64,000 nucleotides of DNA from assembly GCA_014191195.1 (NCBI GenBank), contig BJGZ01000010.1:1-64000 (forward strand). Reading direction: 5' to 3'. How positions within the stretch are numbered: position 1 is the stretch's first letter; the number at the start of each line of letters is the position of its first letter. This document shows positions 7,447 to 57,905 of this stretch, one piece after another. The translations under genes and the position numbers were made by a program. The notes beneath the pieces are model-generated. The model searched no databases. It had not been told where the DNA came from and worked only from the letters and a program-made list of their open reading frames with translations. Source of the stretch: Chlorobiota bacterium. GTDB lineage: Bacteria; Bacteroidota; Ignavibacteria; Kapaibacteriales; UBA961.

Positions 7447-8481
7447 CTATTTTATTTTTTTTGATTGCTTTTCTTTTGGATTAGAATGTAATTGTTGATT
7501 ATTTCCTGAAAATCCTGTTCTCATATATTTTATATCCATATTCATGGTAACAGGAAAAATAGCATTTTCTTGTCCTGTGGCTGCCATTCTTAATTCATAT
7601 TCCATCGATAATTGTGCATCGATAGGAATGCCTGTAAGCAATTCTACATTGTAGATACCTTTTGCAGTTCCTTCTCCATCAATTGTAAGGAATACACCAC
7701 TTTGTTCAGCAGTTCCTTTAATTCCCAGAGAATGAGAGGAACATTGTATTGTTGCGATCCTTGTTCCGTTTTTAACTGAAATATCACTTATTACATAATG
7801 AAGATTTGTATTCATAATAATGCTTGAATTACCTTCAAGAGCGCTTGTATGAATGGTATCAATCTTGGTAATCTTCCATGCAGAATCTTTTTTGATAGGC
7901 TTTGAAGGAAATTCGATAAGGAAATATCGAGCACCTTGTGCTAAAGATTGCAATAATTGTTCAGAGCGAGCTGGAATATGTGCCCCAGAAGGATGAGTAT
8001 GAATCCGTTCTAATACAATACCTTGCTGATTAATCAATTCTTGAGTTTCGGGTAATAAAGAACTATTAGTGGTAAAAGAAGTATCTGGTATGCCTGCCAT
8101 GCTTAATCCATCAAAAGAAACATTTCCCTTATCATATTTATATATTAATAAAAGTTGTTTCTTTACATTTTTATCAATGCTTAACTGCATAGAAGTATGT
8201 GCGGAAGTCCTTGCTTTAAAATCAAACATATCACCTAGTGTTTGCGATACAGAGCTTTCTACGCTAAAATTATATGTATTTCCAGGATTTGGACAATATA
8301 TCAATGGTATAATATCTTCAGATAACAAGGATTCTTTTTTTTCAAGTACTTTTGGGTTAGATTGAGGTGCTTGAGTTTTAAGTAATTTCTTTGATATTTG
8401 AGCTGTAGTATATGTATCATTATTAACAACTAATGATAATATGACAACTGAAATGAGAAAATATATATTCATGGGATGCAA
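7447..8481 (-). CDS. Unknown secreted protein, possibly DUF6263-like
   Basis: A 344-residue protein with an N-terminal signal peptide (about residues 1-27). The mature chain is beta-rich with repeated 'x-T-S-x' strands. The ends of the predicted strands (for example 'DGEGTAKGIYNVELLTGIPIDAQLSMEY' around residues 260-290, quoted only in part) resemble periplasmic DUF6263-like proteins, but this is a weak impression. Length and layout resemble the next gene at 6501-7445, with which it forms a pair separated by one base. No catalytic motif is visible. Confidence 0.72.
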   Translation of the reverse strand: MHPMNIYFLISVVILSLVVNNDTYTTAQISKKLLKTQAPQSNPKVLEKKESLLSEDIIPLIYCPNPGNTYNFSVESSVSQTLGDMFDFKARTSAHTSMQLSIDKNVKKQLLLIYKYDKGNVSFDGLSMAGIPDTSFTTNSSLLPETQELINQQGIVLERIHTHPSGAHIPARSEQLLQSLAQGARYFLIEFPSKPIKKDSAWKITKIDTIHTSALEGNSSIIMNTNLHYVISDISVKNGTRIATIQCSSHSLGIKGTAEQSGVFLTIDGEGTAKGIYNVELLTGIPIDAQLSMEYELRMAATGQENAIFPVTMNMDIKYMRTGFSGNNQQLHSNPKEKQSKKIK

Positions 8482-33088: not shown

Positions 33089-34645
33089 TTAAAAAGGATT
33101 ACCATTATGATCTGTATATAGGGGAAGTATAATTGTAATCATTGTACCTTTTCCAATTGTACTTTCTGCTGTGATTATCCCTTGATGAGCTTCAATAATC
33201 CATTTTACGATTGATAATCCAAGGCCATTTCCTTGAATATCTTTAGACCTAGCCTGATCAGCCCTGAAGAATCTGTCAAAAATATGAGGTAAATGCTCTT
33301 CAGAAATGCCAACACCGGTATCGCTTAACCGTAAAACAACATCATTACCCTGTTTAACCAATCGAATCAGAATATCACCACCAATATTGGTGTATTTTAC
33401 TGAATTATCCACAATATTTAGCAATGCTTGATGAAGCCTTATATCGTCACCTTCCACAAATAAACCAGGCTCTATCATTTTTCCAACTGTAATACTTTTT
33501 TCTTCGGCTAATATTTCGGCATCTTCGCTAATCTCTTCTAACATCAAGCTTAAATTTACACGTTTTTGTTCTATATGAACTTGTCCGGTTTCAGCCCTAG
33601 AAATATCTAATAAAGTTCTTACTACAGTAGAAAGTCTTTCTACTTCTTCTAAACAGCTTATTATTAATACCTGATATTCTCTAGTAGATTTTTCACTTTT
33701 AAGAGCAACTTCTAATTCTCCGGTAAGGATTGCTAAGGGTGTTCTAAGTTCATGAGAAACATCTGCAGTAAACTGTTTTATTTGATAGAATGACCCTTCT
33801 AATCGTGTAATCATTTCATTGAGTGTATGGGTTAGCCTTGCAACTTCATCGTTAGTTTTAGGCTCGGGAAGTCTATTACTTAGATTGCTAGCTGTGATTT
33901 CTCTTGCTGAAGTAGCTAAATCATCAATAGGTTTTAGAGATACTCTTGCTAGGATAAAACCGCCAATTGTTGAAATAAGAAGTACAACTGGAAATCCTAT
34001 TAAAAGGGAAATAAACAATTCATACAAAGTAGTATCTATTTCTTCTAATGAATATCCAACCGAAATATATGCTTGTTTCGTTCTGATTCTTAATAATCTA
34101 AGATTATGGCTTTTACCTGTAAGGATATGAGTAGATGAGATAATAGGCTCGAAACCATTGGTATTTTGTAAGGGTACAGTTGCCAAAGAATTTGTATCAA
34201 GATTTTCGGAACGCCAAACTATTTGTCCTTTAAGATCTGATATTTGGATATAGAAATTTTTAGGATTAAATAGGATATGTTCATACACAGCAGACCAAAC
34301 GGGGTCTTCGCCTACTCCATTACTATCATTTCTAAATGCTATTGAAGTATCCGAAAGAACTATTTTATCTCTGAAAAATGCAAAGGAATCAGCTGCAATT
34401 TCTTTTTGTTGTTGATAATATTTTTTTCTTCTTGGAGCAGGTTTTAAAGGCTGCATTGTTTCTCTTTGTTTCTTTTGAATAATATAATCCAAAGAATGAG
34501 AAACTCTTTCTAATGATGTATCTAAATTTTGATATAAATCGCTAGAAACAGTTATATATGCTGCTATTCCAAAGGTTAATAAAGTACCTGAAACGATAGC
34601 ACTATACCAGAACACAAGGCGAAAACGCAAAGAAATATTTTTCAT
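33089..34645 (-). CDS. Sensor histidine kinase (orphan)
   Basis: A 518-residue kinase. TM1 (about 11-33), periplasmic domain (about 34-210), TM2 (about 211-235), HAMP (about 236-287), and the HisKA dimerisation domain with phospho-acceptor His298 in 'FTADVSHELRTPL' are seen. The HATPase_c domain has the N box 'ALLNIVDNSVKYT', G1 'LSDTGVGI' and G2 'GNGLGLSI'. The layout is that of CusS/EnvZ-type kinases. No response regulator is adjacent: the neighbours are the FG-GAP gene and the CrtC-like gene. It senses a periplasmic signal, unidentified. Confidence 0.92.
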   Translation of the reverse strand: MKNISLRFRLVFWYSAIVSGTLLTFGIAAYITVSSDLYQNLDTSLERVSHSLDYIIQKKQRETMQPLKPAPRRKKYYQQQKEIAADSFAFFRDKIVLSDTSIAFRNDSNGVGEDPVWSAVYEHILFNPKNFYIQISDLKGQIVWRSENLDTNSLATVPLQNTNGFEPIISSTHILTGKSHNLRLLRIRTKQAYISVGYSLEEIDTTLYELFISLLIGFPVVLLISTIGGFILARVSLKPIDDLATSAREITASNLSNRLPEPKTNDEVARLTHTLNEMITRLEGSFYQIKQFTADVSHELRTPLAILTGELEVALKSEKSTREYQVLIISCLEEVERLSTVVRTLLDISRAETGQVHIEQKRVNLSLMLEEISEDAEILAEEKSITVGKMIEPGLFVEGDDIRLHQALLNIVDNSVKYTNIGGDILIRLVKQGNDVVLRLSDTGVGISEEHLPHIFDRFFRADQARSKDIQGNGLGLSIVKWIIEAHQGIITAESTIGKGTMITIILPLYTDHNGNPF

Positions 34646-34736: not shown

Positions 34737-37700
34737 TTATTTAAGGCTAATAACTTCTGTCCATTCTAAATTACCAGACTTCAATCTTACATAATATATG
34801 CCGGTTGGAAGGCTAGACAGATTAAGTTGATGCTTATATATTCCATTGTCATTTGTAGCAAAAGGTATAGATATCATATTCTGTCCTAATACGGATGTAA
34901 TTGAAAGTATACCTTGTACAGAAGTATAATGCTGTAATGATAAGGTTATAAAATCAGAAGCTGGATTTGGATATATAACAAATGACTTTTTTGTTGTCCA
35001 ATCTTGTAAAGACGTTGCTACTCTAAAGCCAAAAGATTGATTTTTGCATGAATTTATATCTCCAATTTCAACAACATAGTTTCCAGTGCCATTTCTTTGG
35101 GTATATGTTAATGTTCTTGATGTAGCTCCTTGTATCAGAACACTGTCTTTGTACCATTGATATGTAATGGCATCAGTAATACATGTTAAAGTAGAATCAT
35201 TTATTTTATCTATAATTGGCTGATAGGGGCGTTTATTGACTTTTACTGTAATTGAATCATATATAGCACATTGCAATGCATCTTTTATTTCAATTTTGAA
35301 TAAAGTAGTTGCATTAGGGCGCGCAATTGGAACTTGTTCGATTAAACTGCTCAAGCCACCACTGCTTGGTGTCCACTTATATTTATAAGGTGGTGTGCCA
35401 CCTTTAATAATAAGCGGTAATTGAATAGAATCACCTTCACAAATTATAAATGAATCTGGTAATTCAGTGCTTAATGCTGGATTGACAATTACATTAATCG
35501 TATCTTTTACTACACAAAAACTTCCATCAATTACTGTGCATATATACCTAGTTGTTTTTGCTGGATTTGCTAATGGCCTTGCAATAGAAACCGAACTTAA
35601 TCCTGTAACTGGTTCCCATGAATATTGATATGGTGGAAGGCCTCCAGAGACAATATTCCCAATTTCTTTTCCTGAAGACTCACATAAAACTATATCGGGT
35701 GCATAACCAAATTTAGTATTACAAGCCGCACCGGTTCTAAAATCTATTTCACCAGGAGTATTATAATTATTGCAGAACCAACGGCTAAAGTGTTGTGTAT
35801 TACCTTCGGCTAATTTATATTCAAATCTCATTCTCCATTTATAGGAAGAATTTACGGTAAGTGCGCTAATATTCTGAACGATATCTTTTAGGCCTTGGAT
35901 ATCTGTCCAAGTTGATGAAGTAACTGTATTCTTATTATTAAATGCTTGATTTAATGGTTTAACTTCTATAATTGGACGTATAAATGTTCTTCCAGTGAAA
36001 GGAAAATATGATGCACCAATATCAACAGAGCTTGAATTCTCGACTCGTAATGAAATAGTAATAGGAGAGTTAGTTCCTTTTTTATACTGCAATGTGCTAC
36101 CTTTAGACCCAGTATTTCCATTGCCATAAAATATAGCAACCATGCCATTTTTGGGGTTAAAGCCGGAATCGTATGATCTTGTAGAAACAGCTAAATCAGG
36201 GTAACCATCGCCATTTATATCTGCAATTGGAGCAATGCATGCGCCAGCGGTTTCTTGTATACCAGATGATTTATATGTCCAAACCGGTAAAGCAGATAGA
36301 CCATTCGAAGATCCAAGATACAGGCGTGATCTATGTGCATTTGCATTTGATGAATATAAGCCCGAACCCACAACGATATCCCCATATCCATCATTATTGA
36401 TATCACCAATAGACCCAGCAGACTTTCCAAATTCTAATGCTGTGATGTCTCCCTCGGCTGTCCATATTGATTGCTTCGATGCACCTTTTGCAGACCCTAA
36501 AAATAGCTGGATTATTCCTTCATTTGTTTGGCCTTTATCATATAAAGTAGATGCAATTAATACATCTGAAAATCCATCATTATTGATATCTCCAGCGGAT
36601 GCTACATTAGCGCCAAATAATGCTTTATATTGATTCCCAGAGACAATCCATCCTGCAGAATCTGCTATTCCATTAGGAATGCCATAATGAATATAAACGC
36701 GCCCTTGATCATCTTGAGCAGTATTAACATCATAAGATGGAGCTCCAATGATAATGTCATTTATGCCATCTCCATTGATATCACCTGCCGAAGCAACTGA
36801 TGCACCAAATTCTGATCCTGTTTGTGGGCCAATTTTAGACCAATAATTATTAGTATTCAAACCGTATTCGCTTCCAAACATAACATTCGCTTTACCTGCA
36901 TTTTCTATAGTAGAAGAAAATCCTGGTTCACCTAAAACAATATCTGAATATCCATCTAGATTGATATCACCTGAATAGCATAAAGAAAATCCAAATTTCC
37001 CACCAGCTTGTGAACCTGAGAACACAGTTTTTGCTTTTAGATCTAAACCTGTCTTAGAGCCATAATAGACATAAATTCTTCCAATATCTTGCTGTGAAGA
37101 ATTTGCATCATCAAAAAATGGAGCACTTACTATTAAGTCAGCATATCCATCTCCATTAAGATCTCCATTAGCTGCTATTGCATATCCAAAACCCGCTCCA
37201 TTTTGATTTGGCCCAATCAATTCATTCTTTGCCACAATATCTATTCCAGATGCACTACCATAATGAATGGTTACTCTTCCTTGATCTGCAGATATACCAT
37301 CATAAAATGGTGATCCAACTGCAAAATCACCAAATCCATCACCATTAAAATCTGCTCTGCCGGAAACTGTCCATCCATATTCTTCATTATCTTGTGCTGC
37401 TTCTATTACTTGATTAGGGCTTATTGCAAAAAAGATTTGTTTGCCATAAGAAACGGTGATAGCACCTTCTTGTAATTGACCATTTTTATAGTATGGTGCA
37501 CCGGCACATATATCTGATATTCCGTCTCCATTAATATCGCCACATATACCAATTGAAGTCCCAAGTTTGGCTCCAGCCTGATCACTTTCAGAAAATAATT
37601 TGCCAGTGCTAAGTCCTGTTTGAGAACCATAATATGTGAACACAGCACCTTCTTGATTTTGCCCTGATGAAAATCCTGGGCATCCAGCAATCATATCTGA

Positions 37701-40700
37701 TATACCATCTGCATTAAAATCTCCATAACCTGATAGAGATGTACCAAGTTTACTTCCATTAGTATTACTTTCGGTATACCAAGATGGTATACGGCTTAAG
37801 CCCAGTGTATTGCCATAAAATACATTGATAACACCTTCATTATTTTGTCCATTTGAAAAACTGGGTGCTCCAATTGCAATATCGGTGAAACCATCCATGT
37901 TTACATCGCCAATATTTGCTATTGCATAACCTAATTCACTATTATCATTAGAGATTGAATATCGCCAATTAACAGTATCAGATGGTTTAGATTTTCTTCC
38001 AAAATAGCAGAAAACGCCACCTTCTGGGGCTAAATCTGAATCACTATTATACGATGGAGCGCCAATAAATATATCATTGTATGTATCAGCATTTATATCT
38101 GCAGAGGCAATAGTAGCACCAAATCTGCATCCAGAATTAGGGCCATAAGAAGTCCATAAAATAGAATCTGGGCCAATAGGATTGCCTGAAAAAAGCATCA
38201 CCATACCAACATTACCATTACTATTTGATGCACCAGGAGCACCAACAAGAATATCAGAAAAACCATCATTATTGATATCTCCGGCACTTGCAACGCTTGC
38301 ACCAAGATTTGCTGCAATTTGATTTGATTCATATTGCCAAAAAGGAGAAGATGAGCTAATCCCTTGGGCACTACCCAAGAAAATCATCAGTTTTCCTTCG
38401 GCATTTTGTCCATTAGAATAACCTGGGGCTCCAACAAGAATATCAGAATACCCATCGCCATTAATATCACCTGCACTAGCTACAGAAGCACCCATTCTGG
38501 CATTCATAGAATTGCTTTCATATATCCATGAAGGGGTAGAGCTAAAACCTGATGCACTACCAAGATAGACTTGTATTCGCCCTTCGGATTGCTCACCGTT
38601 TTCATAATCAGGAGACCCCGCAATCATATCATCATAACCGTCGCCGTTGATATCGCCTGCAGGAGCTAATGAAGTACCTAATTGCGCTAATGGAATATCA
38701 GTTTCTAAAACCTTATCTGATGAACTTAAAGAAGAGCTTATTCCATAATAAATGGAAACTTGACCTTCTTCTCTGAGATCATCATCATAGTATGGAGCTC
38801 CAATGCCAAAATCAGACTTTGTATCAAAATTAATATCACCTAGTCCAGAAACTGAAGTACCAAATTGAGCATCTGCTTGATTGCCTTCTGATGTCCACCC
38901 AGCATTTTGGCTGATAGACACAGTATTTCCGAAATAGAGATATGCTTTACCTTCATCCAATTGTCCATTATCATAGAGTGGCGCGCCAATAATGAAGTCT
39001 GCATTGCCATCATTATTTATATCACCAGTACAGGCAACACTTTGGCCATATCGTGCATTAGCTTGATTGCTTTCATTTGTCCAAGCCGGATTAGTACTTA
39101 AACCATTAGATGTTCCATAAAAACAATATGCTCTACCTTCACTTTGTTCTCCATTTGAATAAAATGGAGCACCAATAAGAACATCATTAAAACCGTCGCC
39201 ATTCAGATCACTACATAAGGCAACAGAAGTTCCACATTCTGCATTAGCTTGATTAGATTCAAATTGCCATGCAGCATTTGTGGAAAGTCCATTTGTAGAT
39301 GAAAAATACACTCTAACGCATCCCTCATTTATATGCCCATTGTCATAAAAGGGGATTCCAATAAGTAAATCTGATTTTGAATCTCCATTAATGTCCATAC
39401 CACCTGAGATAGAAATACCCATTCTTGCATCAATCTGATTACTTTCTACCATCCATGGTGAAGTATTTGCAAGAGATCCATTTCCACCAAAATAAACAAA
39501 GACAGCTCCTTCATCTAATGATCCATTATCATAATAAGGGGCAGAGATTGCGATGTCTAAAGTATCATCATTATTGGCTTTTCCTGCAGAACTTATGGCA
39601 TATCCAAACCGCGCATTTGCTTGATTTGATTCTTTCATTATTGCTGGAGTACTAATGATTCCAGAAGAACTTCCTAAATATAAGAATGCTGCACCTTCAT
39701 CTAATTGGCCATTATCATAACGAGGTGCACCAACCATGATATCATCATAACCATCTTTATTGATATCTCCAATTCCTGCAACAGAAAACCCAAACTCGGA
39801 ATTAGCTTGTCCTGAAGATAGAACAATTTGAGGTTGTTTTTCTGGTCCATTTACTGATCCTAAAAAAACAAAAACTGCTCCTTCATCATTTTTTGTAATA
39901 TCATATTTTGGCATACCTGCTGCAAAGTCACCGATATCATCACCATTTATATCGCCTAAAGGAGTTAAAACATAACCAAAGAAAGCTTCAAATTGATTAC
40001 CATCCATACTCCAATCTGGTGTAGCTGATAATGGATCTATCGTTATAGGATATACTGCTTGTTTATCATCAATATGCAAAGCAATAGTGTTATTGTGCAA
40101 AGAAAATGATGCATCTAGTAATGTATTGTTGGCATCCCATACTTTTAAATCTTTATAGGTGATAACGATTTCAGAACTATGTTTATCTATGAAGGCAATA
40201 CCATCATTATTCATTAATAAAGGCTTTAATTCATCACTTTGTGTTTTAAGCTCAACAGTTAATGTTGAATCTCCCATTGGTTGAGAATGCACAATAAAGT
40301 TTTGTCTTAAACCTTGTTTTGAATTTATATATTCGATAGTAAAATGTTCATTGCTGATATTCATCAAAGAGTCATTGATATTTACATGTGGATTATCAGA
40401 GATCTTTAGGCTAATAGCACCTTTATGAATGCTTTGTAATTCTATGGTGTTTTTCCAAGTATTCTTGTCTAAACTTTGCAATGAAAATGAATAATCACAA
40501 AATTCAATTGCTACATGTTGAGTAGGATTCTTAGAAGTATAGGTATAAGAACTGGATTCGATTCCAAATTCAGAATGATTGTTTTGGCTATATACAATGG
40601 ATTTTTTTGATACAGTATCCATCAAATAACAAAAATCTATATCTAAAAAAGTTAAAGCTGAAACAGCGATAATGAGAGATAAAAACAATCCCTTATAAAC

Positions 40701-40718
40701 AGTGCCTTTAAAGCCCAT
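34737..40718 (-). CDS. Giant secreted FG-GAP beta-propeller protein with T9SS sorting domain
   Basis: A 1993-residue exported protein. I use the ATG at 40718, preceded by GGAG 9 bases upstream, which places a signal peptide (residues 10-30) at the N-terminus; an in-frame ATG at 40772 adds 18 residues. After an N-terminal region (30-235) come 21 integrin-like FG-GAP repeats (about 235-1535, roughly 62 residues each), nearly all with a Ca-binding Asp-x-Asn-x-Asp loop. Then come two Ig/PKD-like domains with 'GGLPPYQYSW' and 'GGTPPYKYKW' and a type A T9SS domain (last 80 residues). It is likely a cell-surface adhesin or binding protein. Confidence 0.92.
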   Translation of the reverse strand: MGFKGTVYKGLFLSLIIAVSALTFLDIDFCYLMDTVSKKSIVYSQNNHSEFGIESSSYTYTSKNPTQHVAIEFCDYSFSLQSLDKNTWKNTIELQSIHKGAISLKISDNPHVNINDSLMNISNEHFTIEYINSKQGLRQNFIVHSQPMGDSTLTVELKTQSDELKPLLMNNDGIAFIDKHSSEIVITYKDLKVWDANNTLLDASFSLHNNTIALHIDDKQAVYPITIDPLSATPDWSMDGNQFEAFFGYVLTPLGDINGDDIGDFAAGMPKYDITKNDEGAVFVFLGSVNGPEKQPQIVLSSGQANSEFGFSVAGIGDINKDGYDDIMVGAPRYDNGQLDEGAAFLYLGSSSGIISTPAIMKESNQANARFGYAISSAGKANNDDTLDIAISAPYYDNGSLDEGAVFVYFGGNGSLANTSPWMVESNQIDARMGISISGGMDINGDSKSDLLIGIPFYDNGHINEGCVRVYFSSTNGLSTNAAWQFESNQANAECGTSVALCSDLNGDGFNDVLIGAPFYSNGEQSEGRAYCFYGTSNGLSTNPAWTNESNQANARYGQSVACTGDINNDGNADFIIGAPLYDNGQLDEGKAYLYFGNTVSISQNAGWTSEGNQADAQFGTSVSGLGDINFDTKSDFGIGAPYYDDDLREEGQVSIYYGISSSLSSSDKVLETDIPLAQLGTSLAPAGDINGDGYDDMIAGSPDYENGEQSEGRIQVYLGSASGFSSTPSWIYESNSMNARMGASVASAGDINGDGYSDILVGAPGYSNGQNAEGKLMIFLGSAQGISSSSPFWQYESNQIAANLGASVASAGDINNDGFSDILVGAPGASNSNGNVGMVMLFSGNPIGPDSILWTSYGPNSGCRFGATIASADINADTYNDIFIGAPSYNSDSDLAPEGGVFCYFGRKSKPSDTVNWRYSISNDNSELGYAIANIGDVNMDGFTDIAIGAPSFSNGQNNEGVINVFYGNTLGLSRIPSWYTESNTNGSKLGTSLSGYGDFNADGISDMIAGCPGFSSGQNQEGAVFTYYGSQTGLSTGKLFSESDQAGAKLGTSIGICGDINGDGISDICAGAPYYKNGQLQEGAITVSYGKQIFFAISPNQVIEAAQDNEEYGWTVSGRADFNGDGFGDFAVGSPFYDGISADQGRVTIHYGSASGIDIVAKNELIGPNQNGAGFGYAIAANGDLNGDGYADLIVSAPFFDDANSSQQDIGRIYVYYGSKTGLDLKAKTVFSGSQAGGKFGFSLCYSGDINLDGYSDIVLGEPGFSSTIENAGKANVMFGSEYGLNTNNYWSKIGPQTGSEFGASVASAGDINGDGINDIIIGAPSYDVNTAQDDQGRVYIHYGIPNGIADSAGWIVSGNQYKALFGANVASAGDINNDGFSDVLIASTLYDKGQTNEGIIQLFLGSAKGASKQSIWTAEGDITALEFGKSAGSIGDINNDGYGDIVVGSGLYSSNANAHRSRLYLGSSNGLSALPVWTYKSSGIQETAGACIAPIADINGDGYPDLAVSTRSYDSGFNPKNGMVAIFYGNGNTGSKGSTLQYKKGTNSPITISLRVENSSSVDIGASYFPFTGRTFIRPIIEVKPLNQAFNNKNTVTSSTWTDIQGLKDIVQNISALTVNSSYKWRMRFEYKLAEGNTQHFSRWFCNNYNTPGEIDFRTGAACNTKFGYAPDIVLCESSGKEIGNIVSGGLPPYQYSWEPVTGLSSVSIARPLANPAKTTRYICTVIDGSFCVVKDTINVIVNPALSTELPDSFIICEGDSIQLPLIIKGGTPPYKYKWTPSSGGLSSLIEQVPIARPNATTLFKIEIKDALQCAIYDSITVKVNKRPYQPIIDKINDSTLTCITDAITYQWYKDSVLIQGATSRTLTYTQRNGTGNYVVEIGDINSCKNQSFGFRVATSLQDWTTKKSFVIYPNPASDFITLSLQHYTSVQGILSITSVLGQNMISIPFATNDNGIYKHQLNLSSLPTGIYYVRLKSGNLEWTEVISLK
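36120..40016 (-). repeat. 21 tandem FG-GAP coding repeats
   Basis: An array of about 185-base coding units inside the giant gene. Each has the core 'GDINGDG.SD' followed by 'GAP.Y.NGQ..EG' and a strand ending 'YFGS'. I counted 21 units by eye. Unit 3 has a degraded calcium loop (KANNDDTLD). Units 8 to 10 and 18-19 are the most alike. Confidence 0.85.
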
Positions 40719-40784
40719 TTGTAGAGTCTCCGCATGAAAATGATAAATACTAAGAATAATGCTACTCTTCAATGCAAAATTACC

Positions 40785-41417
40785 TTATTTCAAGATAATA
40801 CCTGTCTCTATACTCCAAAATAATAAGTCCATCTCTTCCATTGGAATATGAATCTGTGAACAATAAAGCAACCATAATTGTTCGATGTGAACATAATGCT
40901 TCGAACTTTTAATAATTGTTCCTTGCTCAATCACATTACATTCTGCTAGATGCTTAAGGATATGTCTATCTAATATTGTTGGACCAAATATTCCGATATT
41001 TCTCATAAAATGAGCAGATTCTTTCAATCCAAAACCTTTAATACGTGAACATAACATGTCTCTTAAGTCAAATGGAAAGTCTTTATAAGTATCAATTATT
41101 GACTCTATTTCAGAAAAGTGATTTCTAAGTGACTGCAAATTCTTGCTTTTCTGATTATGAAATCGAATATAATGCTCAGGATTTCCTAAAATTGATGCTG
41201 TATTATATCCAGTAAGAAAAAAATCTTCTTTTTTTAGAATTGAACACACAATATCAGCATGAATTGCTTTGGATTGCGGTGTTAAAATGCAATAACATGC
41301 TTCATAAAACCATTCGCTTTTTTCAATCTTTTTAAAATCAGATAATCTCTTTTGTATTGCAGATAATCGCTCTGAATATAACTGCTTATAATATGCAGGA
41401 AATTCCATGTTGTTCAT
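40785..41417 (-). CDS. N-glycosylase/DNA lyase (Ogg2-type 8-oxoguanine glycosylase)
   Basis: A 210-residue HhH-GPD glycosylase. The catalytic Lys132 lies in 'KGFGLKESAHFMRNIG' and Asp150 in 'TILDRHILKHL', the pair needed for bifunctional base removal and beta-lyase action. There is no iron-sulfur cluster, as in Ogg2. The protein is short and starts with 'EWFYEACYCILTPQSKA', typical of the family. It repairs oxidised guanine. The gene is divergent from polA, with a 115-base shared upstream region, and lies before the FG-GAP gene on the minus strand. Confidence 0.9.
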   Translation of the reverse strand: MNNMEFPAYYKQLYSERLSAIQKRLSDFKKIEKSEWFYEACYCILTPQSKAIHADIVCSILKKEDFFLTGYNTASILGNPEHYIRFHNQKSKNLQSLRNHFSEIESIIDTYKDFPFDLRDMLCSRIKGFGLKESAHFMRNIGIFGPTILDRHILKHLAECNVIEQGTIIKSSKHYVHIEQLWLLYCSQIHIPMEEMDLLFWSIETGIILK

Positions 41418-48781: not shown

Positions 48782-51088
48782 ATGAAAAAACTGTTCCTGT
48801 TTTTCTTTATTTCCCTAATGATAATATCATCTATAATGCATAGCCCTAAAATATATGCTAAAAGAGGGGATACAAATTCAGTAAAATTATTTGATAAGTA
48901 TTTATGGACTTATTATGGTAGCCAGAGTAGATGGGGAGTGTTCCCAAGTGCAGATAAGAAATTTGAACGCATCATGATGCATTTTATTCTTACATGCCCT
49001 ACTGGTGGATGCGGTGAATGGGATTATACAATGAAAGTAATGGCTAGAAATCATACAGGGAAATTAGACTCAAATCTTGTAGATGCTCCGTCATTCACAA
49101 TTGGTGGTGGTGCCAGAGATACCTTGAAAGTTAGTAGCATGCAAACATTTAAGACAAAGTTTAATGCTACAGTTAAAAAAACTGATACAATCTTAAATTC
49201 GCCAATTACAATTTCATTCTATAAAAATAATGCTAGCCCATTTACTGTTTCTGATACACAACAAGTGTATGAAGCTGAATATTGGAATTATTACTATTCT
49301 TCAACAGGCGTAAAATCAGATTCACTATTTGTAAAGTCTGATTTACTATTTACAAAAGGGAATAGAAAAGCATATAAGCCTTTCGAAATAGTGCTCGAGA
49401 CAGAGATAGCTCGATTTATTACTCCTTATGGTAAATGGTTTCCAAAAGATTGGTCGTATTCATGGGATTATGACATTACAGATTATGCACATATGCTAAC
49501 CGATTCTACTGAAATACGAGTAATATATGATGGATATTCTCAAGGATCATTATTTACGCTTACTTTTGATATGATAGAAGGAATACCAGCAAGAGAAACC
49601 TATAAAAGCCAAGTGCTTTGGTCTGGAAATCCTACATATGGTGATCCTAATAATCCAATAAGCAATTTTTTAACTCCTAAAACTATGCCTTCATTAAACA
49701 AAGAAGATATGGTTACATTGCGCTTAATGACAACTGGTCATGGATTTGGTGGGACAGAAAATGCAGCCGAATTTTCTGAAAAAACACATATGATTGCAAT
49801 CAATGGACAAGACTTGTATGAACAGCATTTATGGCGTCCAGATTGCGGGCAAAATCCTGTTTATCCACAAGCAGGTACTTGGTATTTTCAAAGGGGTGGC
49901 TGGTGCCCAGGCGATGCAGTTCAATATTGGGATTATAATATAACAGAGCATTTTTCAAAAAGTGATTCAGTACAGATTGGCTATAATATGGTAGAATACA
50001 CAAATGATGATCTTGGAAAAAGAGCTAGCTATATTCTAGAAGGACAAATCCTCTATTCTAAAGCTAATTATATAAATAATGCTTCTTTGGAAGAAATTAA
50101 AACTCCTAATAATGCATATAAGTATCGGAGAATGAATCCAATTTGTAGGGGACAACAGCCTTTAATAGTTGTTAAAAACAATGGAAAATCAGATTTAACT
50201 TCACTAGTTATACGTTATAAAGTAGATAATGAAGCTGAAAATGTATTTAATTGGAAAGGCACTATACCTTATATGAATACTGCAGAGATTTTATTGCCAG
50301 CTTTAGAGTTTCCTAAAGTAGGCGATCATAAGTTTACTGTTGGTGTCTATGAACCAAACGGTAAAGCAGATGAATCTACTATTGGTGATATGATGACGGT
50401 GAATTTTACAAATGGAAAAACTGTCAATAATTCCAAAATTATTCTTACAATCACATTGGATTATGTGCAAGGATATAATAATTCTATTCGTTATCAAATA
50501 GTAGATAATGAAGGCTATATAATTAAAGAAAAAGATGGATTTGTAGACAAATCAACAATCAGAGATACCACCACATTAGAGGATGGATGTTATAGATTTA
50601 TCATCTATGAAGAAGGTATTGGAGATGGTTTATATCCTATTTATTCAGGTTCAACCAGAGGATCTTTTAGTTTGAAAGATAGTAAGAATACTATGATATA
50701 CAATACTGCATCTTCTCTTTTTGGTCAACCAGCTGGTGTATATGCTAGTTTTGGTGATAGAGAAATTATAACATTTCAAGTAAATACAGCTGCTGCTTCT
50801 ACTGAAGAAGAACTTTTATCTACTATTGTTCCTGAACTTAGAGTATCGCCAAATCCATTGGTAAATGGCAATGGCTTCTTAACTGTTAAAGGCCTTCAAC
50901 ATTCTAGTTCTGTTAATGTAAAAATACTATCTCCACTTGGAAGAGAGCTTTATTCACAGATTATCACAGCTGGTGAAGCGGAGCATTTTCCATTAGATTT
51001 GCATGGCTTTGCTTCAGGAAGTTATCAAGTGCAAATATCTCAAGGATCCTTTGTATTAACAGAATCTTTGGTCCATTTAGCACAATAA
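48782..51088 (+). CDS. Secreted PNGase F-like protein with T9SS sorting domain
   Basis: A 768-residue protein with a signal peptide (1-26). Residues about 30-420 match the two-domain peptide-N-glycosidase F fold: Cys72/Cys77 and Asp81 in 'TCPTGGCGEWD' (aligning with the catalytic Asp60 region), Glu330 in 'TENAAEFSEKTHMIAIN' (aligning with Glu206), and 'GGWCPGDAV'. The residue aligning with Glu118 is Asp250 or Gly251. An insert of about 100 residues splits the first domain. A T9SS type A domain ends the protein ('VSPNPLVNGNG'). It may cleave N-glycans or bind glycoproteins. Confidence 0.8.
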   Translation: MKKLFLFFFISLMIISSIMHSPKIYAKRGDTNSVKLFDKYLWTYYGSQSRWGVFPSADKKFERIMMHFILTCPTGGCGEWDYTMKVMARNHTGKLDSNLVDAPSFTIGGGARDTLKVSSMQTFKTKFNATVKKTDTILNSPITISFYKNNASPFTVSDTQQVYEAEYWNYYYSSTGVKSDSLFVKSDLLFTKGNRKAYKPFEIVLETEIARFITPYGKWFPKDWSYSWDYDITDYAHMLTDSTEIRVIYDGYSQGSLFTLTFDMIEGIPARETYKSQVLWSGNPTYGDPNNPISNFLTPKTMPSLNKEDMVTLRLMTTGHGFGGTENAAEFSEKTHMIAINGQDLYEQHLWRPDCGQNPVYPQAGTWYFQRGGWCPGDAVQYWDYNITEHFSKSDSVQIGYNMVEYTNDDLGKRASYILEGQILYSKANYINNASLEEIKTPNNAYKYRRMNPICRGQQPLIVVKNNGKSDLTSLVIRYKVDNEAENVFNWKGTIPYMNTAEILLPALEFPKVGDHKFTVGVYEPNGKADESTIGDMMTVNFTNGKTVNNSKIILTITLDYVQGYNNSIRYQIVDNEGYIIKEKDGFVDKSTIRDTTTLEDGCYRFIIYEEGIGDGLYPIYSGSTRGSFSLKDSKNTMIYNTASSLFGQPAGVYASFGDREIITFQVNTAAASTEEELLSTIVPELRVSPNPLVNGNGFLTVKGLQHSSSVNVKILSPLGRELYSQIITAGEAEHFPLDLHGFASGSYQVQISQGSFVLTESLVHLAQ

Positions 51089-53852: not shown

Positions 53853-56800
53853 TCAATCAAAATTAATTAAAGATTGTGTGAAAGATTTTCCAAGTGCTTG
53901 AAATATAATAATATAACTTCCGGGCAACAATGATGATTTATCAATTTGTACTTGATGTAACCCTTTGCTCCCTTTAGCAGAATAATGCATTTTTTCATTA
54001 CCTAATATGTCTAATAATTGAATGGAATATTCACATTCTTTTGATAACAGGAAAGAAACAGTAGAATTATAATCTAATGGATGTGGTCCAACACCTAATA
54101 ATCCAAAACCTGAATTTGCTGCTCCTATTATTCTCATATCATAAGCACATACTTTTTCCATCATTATTGGATAAGAAGTAGTATCAACAGTAAAACAGTC
54201 ATTACTAGGATTGATTAAACGAATTGATATCGTTCCTACACTGTCAGTTAAATATGTATCAAAGTCTAATTCGGTATGCCAAGTGCCGCTTCCATCTAAA
54301 ATTAACTCTGTACCTGATTCTATTAATACTGTTGATTGACTTACAGGAATAATGTCAGCAGGTAATTTTATTTCTCCTGAAATACCATTGAAGTATAAAA
54401 TTGAAGATTTATTGATACATGTTACAGCTTTCGCTGGATATTCAAGGAGTAATTTGGGCTTAAATTGTACAGATGAAGTTACGGGGGCATCATAAGATCC
54501 AGTGATGCTTAGTTTCATCTGCTCGCCAGGAAAATACGATATAGGCTGAATTGACTTATTAGTAAATGAAATCTTATTTTCTATAGATAGTAAAGAAACA
54601 TTTGTTTTAAGCTGCATTGAATCATTGACAATAGCTGTAAACTGAATGATATCACTTCCAATTTTAGTAAAAGTAACATTGAAAAAATAGGTTAAAAATC
54701 CATTGTTGGCTGGAATAGTTAATGGGAATTGCTGATTAACTCTTTTAATTACAGAAATACTATCTTTTAATGATTGAAAATCTATACTTTTTACATAAAC
54801 ATCACGATTGCCTTTATTCATGATGGTTATGCCAATAACTCTTTCTGTGCACACTCTTGTTCTTACTGAACCAGTATTGGATATATCTACTTTTATGGTG
54901 TCTATTGATACAGCATTACCCCAAATCTCTACTATGCTCATAGTTTTCTTATAAGCTGGCAGGGCATCATGATAGATTGCTAGTTTGACGCTATGTTTAC
55001 CAATTCTTTTTGGATTAAATGCTATCGGAATAGAATATGCTGTCCCATAATTAATTATCTGATTTTTTAAATATGTTGGGTCGATACTAAAAGAAGAAAT
55101 ATCTCCGCTTACTATTATGATTGAATCGACAGAAAGTGATTCATTACCATATGTTTTAAACAAAACACAATTTGAATCTTTAGTTTGACCTTCTACTATT
55201 GTGCCTAGATATGTATCATATACACGTATAAAAGGTTGTGTACCTATTCCATGTAATTCAATCGTTTGTTTCCCTGTAACAAATCCATTAGTAAACTGTA
55301 TAGCTCCAAAGCCCGAATAAGCAATAGTATCTAGTGGAATAAATGCTAAAGAAATTAATATAGAGTCATATGGATTTACATTAATAGATGGTACATTATT
55401 AGGTAATTCAACGTGAAAAATATTTTGATCAAATCCGGAGCTGTCTATAGATATAATTGCTGTATCTGATCCTGTATTATATATAGACATACTGGTATTA
55501 TGCACTGTTTGAGTTCTTTTCTTATTCCAATCGTAGATTATCCCTGTTATACGTGGTGTAATTCCTTTACCGAGGACAAATGCTTGATTATCTATATTCT
55601 GAGTGTTGATTACGGTAACACTTTCCTGATAGTTAACTGTATCTGAAGGATAAAAATGACATGGTAATATCAGTGAATCGTTAGGAGTAAGAGAATAAGG
55701 AAATATAGTAGATGTATCTATTACAAATGTACCGTTATATTTTTGTGTATAATTCAATTGTAACAGTTGTACAGATTTTTTACCTGTATTTATAATTGTA
55801 ATATTACCTTTTCTACTACTATCTTTAACACTTACTTTCCCAAAATCATGTCCTTCAATCAAGAGAGATTGTTTATATATCGATCCCTTAATTGGAATAG
55901 TAATCATGGTTTTACATTGTGTCTCTAGATAGAGAAAAGCTGATACATCAGATGTATCAGGATTTGCTTTGAAACATATAGTGATTGTCCTGGTATTACC
56001 TGGAGCAATACATTCATCAAAAAGAGGTAATCCTTTTTCTGCAAATGATAATCTGTTGTCTCCCATCATTGAAGCTTGAAGAAAACATACAGTATCTAAT
56101 CCAAAATTTTTAATTGTATAATCAATACAAATAGAATCGCCACTTGCTATTTCTTTGAACTGAATGGTATCAGACATAATAAGAGATAAGGCAGAATATG
56201 TATGAACATATATCATTTTATTCCCAGCATTATCTATAGCTTCTAATGTAATTTTTGCATTTCTTTTGGCATCAATTGGGTTCGCTGTAAAACTACCTGA
56301 CATAGAATTGTCAAAAATTCGAGAAATATTCCAATTATAATTATATGTGCTATCTTCAATGATATTGATATCATATAATCCAGAATAATCGTTAAGTAAT
56401 ACTTCTTCTATTTCACCTTGTAATTTGCCACATTCTTCTTTTATGTTAATTCGTGGAGATAATGTGTCAATCCCTTTTGACAATGCAAATCCCAAAGGAT
56501 ATCCGTAGGCATCATCAGAACCCAGACCATAAAGAGAACAAGCAAAATTACCTTCACTAGAAGATAGTTTGTGAGTTCCGGGTGAAACAGGTAAAGCTAC
56601 ATAAAATAGGGTAGTACCAGAAATTCTTTGTTGTTTTAATTCAGTAGTTATGGAGTTAATATAATTGTTGTCTAACATGATATAATCAACGGCATCTTCG
56701 CTACAAATTACATTGATAAAATGTCTATTAAATTGATTTGGATTTGTAGGAGGATTATACATCACATGGAAAAGTGCCTCTTTGACAAATGATTCTAACG

Positions 56801-57905
56801 AAGGCAAGATAATCATGCATGGGTCATATGTTTGGGAATTTGGGTCTGATGAATAGCTTGTACTCATATATTGAGCCACGCTGATTGGTTTATCAGCTTG
56901 GATTAATAAAGGTTCTCTGATAAAATTGAGTGTAGTAAAATTTCCAGGATTATTTAGCGTATACGAATTAGTACCACCAGAGCCTTTCGCTTGCACAGTG
57001 GTATTAGATTGTAGGCACATAATTCTGAAAAAGTCTCCATTGCTACCATTTTTAAATGGCATCGTAGGGTATTGCTTACCCCATATTGATGTAGGTTGGA
57101 GCATTTCTATTAAATGATTTTTGCTGTCAAAATCATTTAATCCTATAGGTATTGCTGTTCTTACATGTCCGCCAAAAACTCCTATTGGCTTGTCTGAACG
57201 AATAATTGTACCGCTTAAATCTCCTTGTCCTTTAGGAAGTGTATCAGATTTTACTAAGTAGCAATCTCCTTTATTAAGAAGAATATACGTAGAGATATCT
57301 TTTCCAATACCATTCCAAGTAGCAGATTTTGGAGCAAATTCTATTGTAGTTTGATCTTCTGATGCTATAATCATGAATTCACTTGTTCTGGGAACTTTAG
57401 CATCAATAGGATGAGGGGTCATATAGATATCATTCGGCCAAGAATGCACTATATATTCAAGGCCCCATTTATGAACAGGTATTGCTGAATATCCATCTGT
57501 TGTTAAAGATTGACTACTTAATCCGCTTACTGTGATTGGCTCATCAGAAATTATCTCAACTGCCTGCCTTAATGCAATTTCAGATCTAATCATTTCTATT
57601 GATGGAAAATACAATGGAAATTGTATAACTGAATCTGCAGGAATTTTGATTGTTGTTCTGGCAGTGCCATAAGGAGAAGCAATAGATACGGTAGCATTTT
57701 TATGTGAAGAAATAAATAAGTTAAGTGCTACGCCACCAGGAGCTAAATAGATTTCATTTTGCATAAAACCCAATAAGAAATACCTTCCTCCCAAACCAGA
57801 TTGTTTAGATTGTATTTCATTATATCTATCATTACTATGTGCACTAAACACATTGCTAAGCATTACTGCAATCAAACAGATAAAGATATGTATAGTGGTC
57901 TTCAA
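53853..57905 (-). CDS. Large T9SS-secreted protein with IgGFc-binding and anchor-D-like domains
   Basis: A 1350-residue exported protein. A signal peptide (1-24) is followed by an IgGFc-binding-type N-terminal region (about 35-465; 'GRYFLLGFMQNEI' start). Several HYDIN/choice-of-anchor-D-like Ig modules follow (about 575-1015), each with 'GSD/NTG' turns. A beta-rich stretch precedes a C-terminal T9SS-like domain (about 1270-1350, 'GSYIIIFQA'). It is likely a surface-anchored adhesin. A 272-base intergenic region separates it from the beta-barrel gene; I see nothing else in that gap. Confidence 0.8.
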   Translation of the reverse strand: MKTTIHIFICLIAVMLSNVFSAHSNDRYNEIQSKQSGLGGRYFLLGFMQNEIYLAPGGVALNLFISSHKNATVSIASPYGTARTTIKIPADSVIQFPLYFPSIEMIRSEIALRQAVEIISDEPITVSGLSSQSLTTDGYSAIPVHKWGLEYIVHSWPNDIYMTPHPIDAKVPRTSEFMIIASEDQTTIEFAPKSATWNGIGKDISTYILLNKGDCYLVKSDTLPKGQGDLSGTIIRSDKPIGVFGGHVRTAIPIGLNDFDSKNHLIEMLQPTSIWGKQYPTMPFKNGSNGDFFRIMCLQSNTTVQAKGSGGTNSYTLNNPGNFTTLNFIREPLLIQADKPISVAQYMSTSYSSDPNSQTYDPCMIILPSLESFVKEALFHVMYNPPTNPNQFNRHFINVICSEDAVDYIMLDNNYINSITTELKQQRISGTTLFYVALPVSPGTHKLSSSEGNFACSLYGLGSDDAYGYPLGFALSKGIDTLSPRINIKEECGKLQGEIEEVLLNDYSGLYDINIIEDSTYNYNWNISRIFDNSMSGSFTANPIDAKRNAKITLEAIDNAGNKMIYVHTYSALSLIMSDTIQFKEIASGDSICIDYTIKNFGLDTVCFLQASMMGDNRLSFAEKGLPLFDECIAPGNTRTITICFKANPDTSDVSAFLYLETQCKTMITIPIKGSIYKQSLLIEGHDFGKVSVKDSSRKGNITIINTGKKSVQLLQLNYTQKYNGTFVIDTSTIFPYSLTPNDSLILPCHFYPSDTVNYQESVTVINTQNIDNQAFVLGKGITPRITGIIYDWNKKRTQTVHNTSMSIYNTGSDTAIISIDSSGFDQNIFHVELPNNVPSINVNPYDSILISLAFIPLDTIAYSGFGAIQFTNGFVTGKQTIELHGIGTQPFIRVYDTYLGTIVEGQTKDSNCVLFKTYGNESLSVDSIIIVSGDISSFSIDPTYLKNQIINYGTAYSIPIAFNPKRIGKHSVKLAIYHDALPAYKKTMSIVEIWGNAVSIDTIKVDISNTGSVRTRVCTERVIGITIMNKGNRDVYVKSIDFQSLKDSISVIKRVNQQFPLTIPANNGFLTYFFNVTFTKIGSDIIQFTAIVNDSMQLKTNVSLLSIENKISFTNKSIQPISYFPGEQMKLSITGSYDAPVTSSVQFKPKLLLEYPAKAVTCINKSSILYFNGISGEIKLPADIIPVSQSTVLIESGTELILDGSGTWHTELDFDTYLTDSVGTISIRLINPSNDCFTVDTTSYPIMMEKVCAYDMRIIGAANSGFGLLGVGPHPLDYNSTVSFLLSKECEYSIQLLDILGNEKMHYSAKGSKGLHQVQIDKSSLLPGSYIIIFQALGKSFTQSLINFD

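Follow-up and report, generated by a model that had tools for sequence, protein, structure and literature searches.

The giant gene on the minus strand of the window, by which the whole analysed stretch of 64,000 nucleotides is meant (contig BJGZ01000010.1, positions 1 to 64,000), encodes a protein with 21 FG-GAP repeats; the question raised by the locus is whether these repeats form three consecutive seven-bladed propellers of the integrin type, as the sequence-only reading had proposed. The genome containing the window is 2.41 Mb in size; its close relatives carry the labels Candidatus Kapaibacterium or Ignavibacteria MAG, and the nearest match is 94% identical. An alternative in-frame TTG at 40772 would extend the protein by 18 residues. 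An Rfam search of the window returned no matches. The features of the locus are collected in Table 1.

Table 1. Features of the FG-GAP protein gene and its neighbours; positions are those of the window.
Feature	Position	Strand	Residues or length	Remarks
ORF, 21-unit FG-GAP protein	34737..40718	minus	1,993 aa plus stop	ATG at 40718; stop ends at 34737
N-terminal hydrophobic leader and conserved region	40029..40718	minus	~1-230	ends YPITIDPLS
Units 1-7, proposed propeller 1	38721..40019	minus	234-666	D0 velcro strand at start
Units 8-14, proposed propeller 2	37419..38720	minus	667-1100	
Units 15-21, proposed propeller 3	36105..37418	minus	1101-1538	
Unit 3 loop KANNDDTLD	39555..39581	minus		first calcium ligand lost
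Conserved segment after array	35703..36086	minus	1545-1672	from alignment
Two PKD/SprB-like modules	35235..35702	minus	~1673-1828	SprB below Pfam cut-off, and alignment
Ig-like module	35034..35234	minus	~1829-1895	Ig_3 and Ig_7 below cut-off
T9SS C-terminal sorting domain	34767..34976	minus	1915-1984	PF18962
8-oxoguanine DNA glycosylase (Ogg-HhH)	40785..41417	minus		upstream neighbour
Sensor histidine kinase	33089..34645	minus		downstream neighbour

The number of repeats is the same by three routes: the Pfam FG-GAP model (PF01839) finds 21 stretches (E 7e-140, 453.8 bits against a cut-off of 22.1), a loop scan finds 21 loops spaced 60-65 residues apart with the first at residue 256 and the last at residue 1500, and an HMM trained on the units of this family returns 21 as well. 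The count made from the sequence is thus confirmed, and the HMM check that had been suggested for it gave a multiple of seven. The calcium pattern D-x-[DN]-x-D-x-x-x-D, read from the sequence as a predicted calcium site, is intact in 20 of the 21 loops; these 20 would be expected to be occupied by calcium outside the cell. Unit 3 is indeed the sole degraded loop of the protein, with Lys at the first ligand position; K, R or N stands at this position in all eight aligned orthologs, which argues for an old, retained loss rather than recent decay. The first ligand of unit 2 has also been lost in four orthologs.

Orthologs comprise seven sequences from three other genera at 40-43% identity and one partial copy that is 94% identical; all are colinear with the window protein, and by the family HMM every ortholog with a whole array has 21 colinear units. 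The maintenance of 21 units in order at 40-43% identity is not attributable to chance. Wherever contigs are long enough, the giant gene keeps its place between the glycosylase and histidine kinase genes. No full-length match to the giant gene was found in five genomes of the same genus (G008-G011, G013), where the glycosylase and kinase genes lie ~70-75 bases apart and form a clean empty site; since the giant gene is present at the same place in other genera, clean loss in these five genomes is the simplest reading. In one further locus (L035, G012:C265) the C-terminal part of an ortholog is fused in frame to unrelated sequence, which is probably an assembly artefact.

Unit numbers in relatives provide the broadest evidence on ring size. 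The family HMM was applied to ORFs of related loci, and complete arrays with four or more units were counted; the relatives were found by similarity to the window family and are not an unbiased census. Among 80 complete arrays, 17 have 7 units, 45 have 14, 10 have 21 and eight have other numbers, giving 72 multiples of seven (binomial tail 1e-51 for a chance of 1/7); when Dyadobacter and the Kapaibacterium orthologs are each counted once, 41 of 49 arrays are multiples of seven (3e-27, again for a chance of 1/7). Arrays of 21 units outside the Kapaibacterium group occur in an unclassified bacterium (L058) and in Lentisphaerae (L099). Several apparent exceptions come out as multiples of seven on inspection: a Myxococcales array (L094) has 20 units by HMM and 21 by eye; a 14-unit array (L172, G222:C47, 2062-5411, minus strand) appears to be broken into parts of 10 and 4 units by an insertion whose ORFs resemble IS3-type transposases; L114 has 3 and 4 units in two same-frame ORFs with a stop between them; and the divergent arrays L119 and L120 have seven units each by eye. 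The arrays that do not fit are two 13-unit ORFs whose units are almost identical (L170 and L171, both in the draft genome G296), a 6-unit ORF (L115), a 6-unit protein from a viral contig (L133/L134) and the divergent array L104; such leftover numbers might result if near-identical repeats collapsed during short-read assembly. The near-restriction of related arrays to 7, 14 or 21 units in many phyla suggests that the fold may limit the growth of such repeat proteins. As a separate observation on L094, units ~9-14 of its ORF at 7662 are short (46-55 residues) and the flanking units are mostly 59-63 residues; this change of blade type ends at 14|15.

The placement of the outer strand is a further indication of closed rings. 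Among solved structures, integrin alpha propellers come closest in sequence (alpha-V, E 3e-23). An outer D-strand motif (D0) precedes unit 1 and is absent after unit 21; arrays of 7, 14 and 21 units alike have D0 and lack the final D motif, as in the velcro closure of integrins. It is proposed that an N-terminal outer strand closes each ring, such that ring 1 would be closed by the strand before unit 1, and rings 2 and 3 by those ahead of units 8 and 15; in this arrangement the rings would adjoin with almost no linker. An anomalous D strand was considered as a mark of the ring border, as D7 is one residue short and lacks Trp in all 21-unit Kapaibacterium orthologs; it was not used as proof of a border because other D strands lack Trp too.

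The phase of the rings was addressed through conservation, for which the identity of same-index units was compared in 131 pairs from 21 Dyadobacter loci with 14-unit proteins. Units 1-7 of these orthologs have per-unit identities of 0.70-0.74, units 8-14 of 0.45-0.53, and the best conservation split falls at 7|8 in 87 of the 131 pairs. The contrast is weaker in the 21-unit family, where, of 136 splits, the one at 7 and 14 comes second; the first blade of each ring also tends to be the least conserved in this family (p 0.0016). The predicted ring border at 7|8 is supported by this module border in the 14-unit relatives. A comparison of unit similarity within and between the proposed rings gave no clear border.

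Two AlphaFold models of the window sequence were made with 11-row alignments, model A covering units 1-19 and model B units 4-21; confidence is modest (mean pLDDT 66.5 and 65.8, pTM 0.42 and 0.50, respectively). Model A aligns with integrins at a VIA Z of up to 37.3 (rmsd 2.8, 344 residues aligned), and its end (the FG of unit 20) is aligned to residue 406 of integrin alpha-V, giving a ring of about units 14-20. Model B aligns with an integrin propeller at a VIA Z of 26 (rmsd ~4.6-5) over model residues 694-1117, or 1112-1535 of the full-length protein, which corresponds to units 15-21; both registers were read from alignment end points. In each construct the match to integrin-like rings is confined to the C-terminal end; pLDDT is low elsewhere and rings 1 and 2 are not resolved. 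The two offset constructs did not decide the phase, as the ring register moved with the construct end; the models thus back rings of seven and cannot place their borders. Of the structural check put forward with the three-propeller proposal, the part that holds is that the models resemble closed integrin propellers, with no superhelix; three closed rings were not seen directly and their phase was not fixed.

Two other arrangements of the 21 units have to be weighed. Rings of unequal size (e.g. 6+7+8), with 21 equal to 3 x 7 by coincidence, draw on other propeller families in which blade number varies, including a 15-blade WD40 array modelled as 7+8 (PMC9218822), and on the freedom of register that the AlphaFold models leave; such rings are nevertheless improbable, as relatives built from the FG-GAP unit have 7, 14 or 21 copies of it across many phyla and the 7|8 border of the 14-unit relatives is sharp. 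A superhelix that stays open, or a single unbroken array in which no ring closes, would agree with the loop scan, where unit spacing is near-constant across the presumed ring borders and no obvious linkers are seen; however, an integrin propeller is matched by both models (Z 26 and 37), the outer strand sits as for velcro closure, and multiples of seven would have no advantage in an open array, making this arrangement highly improbable. Three consecutive seven-bladed integrin-type rings are considered very likely to form the core of the protein: the proposal of three propellers drawn from the count of 21 is supported by the 7/14/21 counts in relatives, the placement of D0 and the 7|8 border, and seven blades per predicted ring are supported by count and comparison. 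Unit number, colinearity, motifs and the counts in relatives are observed directly; from these we infer that all three rings close.

The regions flanking the array would fit a secreted protein. The N-terminal region (residues ~1-230) has no Pfam match; its pattern is YxDLxVWD, and a conserved N-terminal region ending YP(I/V)T(I/V)DP is also seen ahead of FG-GAP arrays in several other phyla. The segment following the array (residues 1545-1672) also has no Pfam match, and it follows the 6-unit array of L115 as well. What had been described as two PKD/Ig modules is a PKD/Ig-like stalk as far as its type is concerned, and its composition is different: the post-array segment is followed by two PKD/SprB-like modules and one Ig-like module. 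The T9SS domain at the protein end was correctly recognized (PF18962, 43.1 bits with a cut-off of 27; TIGR04183, 35.3 bits with a cut-off of 23). The genome encodes T9SS machinery (SprA and PorV-family proteins, both above cut-off), and a search for the T9SS tail matches it 87 times (E <= 0.001), which makes export of the FG-GAP protein by the type IX secretion system likely, a conclusion held with considerable confidence; the GldM model gave zero matches in the genome and likewise zero in controls, so that its result carries no information. It is hypothesized that the N-terminal leader directs the protein to the periplasm, from which the type IX system would export it; the C-terminal domain would then attach it to the surface, with the PKD/Ig-like modules as a stalk. 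A secreted surface protein of three consecutive integrin-type propellers is, with good confidence, the best explanation of the whole. Elsewhere in the window, the product of 48782-51088 (plus strand) has the C-terminal domain of peptide-N-glycosidase F together with a weak T9SS tail, and that of 53853-57905 (minus strand), 1,350 aa long, combines an IgGFc-binding domain and HYDIN/ASH-like domains with a T9SS tail below threshold.

The role of such a protein is a more evenly balanced matter. A putative function in adhesion or ligand binding is given an even chance; that the three propellers are right and the protein is no adhesin, acting instead as a structural surface or matrix protein or as a carbohydrate binder, is given slightly less than that. 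Sugar binding is common among propellers of the related VCBS supercluster (PMC9218822), and the absence of the gene from the five same-genus genomes indicates that it is dispensable in that genus. Nothing speaks directly against a non-adhesive role, as a surface location and an Ig-like stalk fit both kinds of protein alike; the function may be ordinary surface binding.

How the arrays came to be counted in sevens was approached through similarity between units of one array. Units seven apart are no more alike in the window family, and over 55 arrays similarity at lag 7 exceeds that at neighbouring lags in 28; the highest similarity tends to fall between adjacent units. With no similarity at lag 7, any duplication of whole propellers has left no trace; the arrays may have grown blade by blade with only closing counts surviving, or an older propeller duplication may have been erased by blade-wise homogenization. 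Amplification of single blades, or homogenization blade by blade, with ring closure filtering out other counts, is about as probable as its opposite. If true, closure-filtered growth would be testable on the series of one-, two- and three-ring arrays that nature provides. Quantization by seven together with the conservation borders offers a clean natural test of fold closure constraining repeat-protein growth.

Among known systems, the closest are the bacterial integrin-type propellers described by Chouhan et al. 2011 (PMC3192720), which have 7 or 14 FG-GAP repeats (in tandem as 7+7), a calcium loop in essentially every blade and a strand before the first blade that is predicted to close the ring. 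The window protein shares their ~60-residue FG-GAP unit, calcium loops and leading strand, and differs in its 21 units, T9SS tail, PKD/Ig-like stalk and the conserved loss of the unit 3 loop. The integrin alpha subunits (alpha-V, alpha-IIb, alpha-5) are alike in blade sequence and fold and in the N-terminal velcro strand; however, integrins have one ring. The window protein has the calcium pattern in 20 of its 21 blades, and Pfam finds no other integrin domain in it, leg domains after the propellers included, the PKD/Ig-like modules and T9SS tail standing in that place. In the highly repetitive propellers of Pereira and Lupas 2022 (PMC9218822), blade numbers form a continuum biased to the family median; these resemble the FG-GAP arrays in having many similar blades per chain, with neighbours slightly closer, which fits amplification of single blades, whereas the arrays studied here have almost only 7, 14 or 21 units and the units are more diverged. 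No three-propeller FG-GAP protein, and no report of FG-GAP in Kapabacteria, was found in the open-access literature; with the present family, the bacterial integrin-type propellers of one or two rings would be joined by a conserved form with three.
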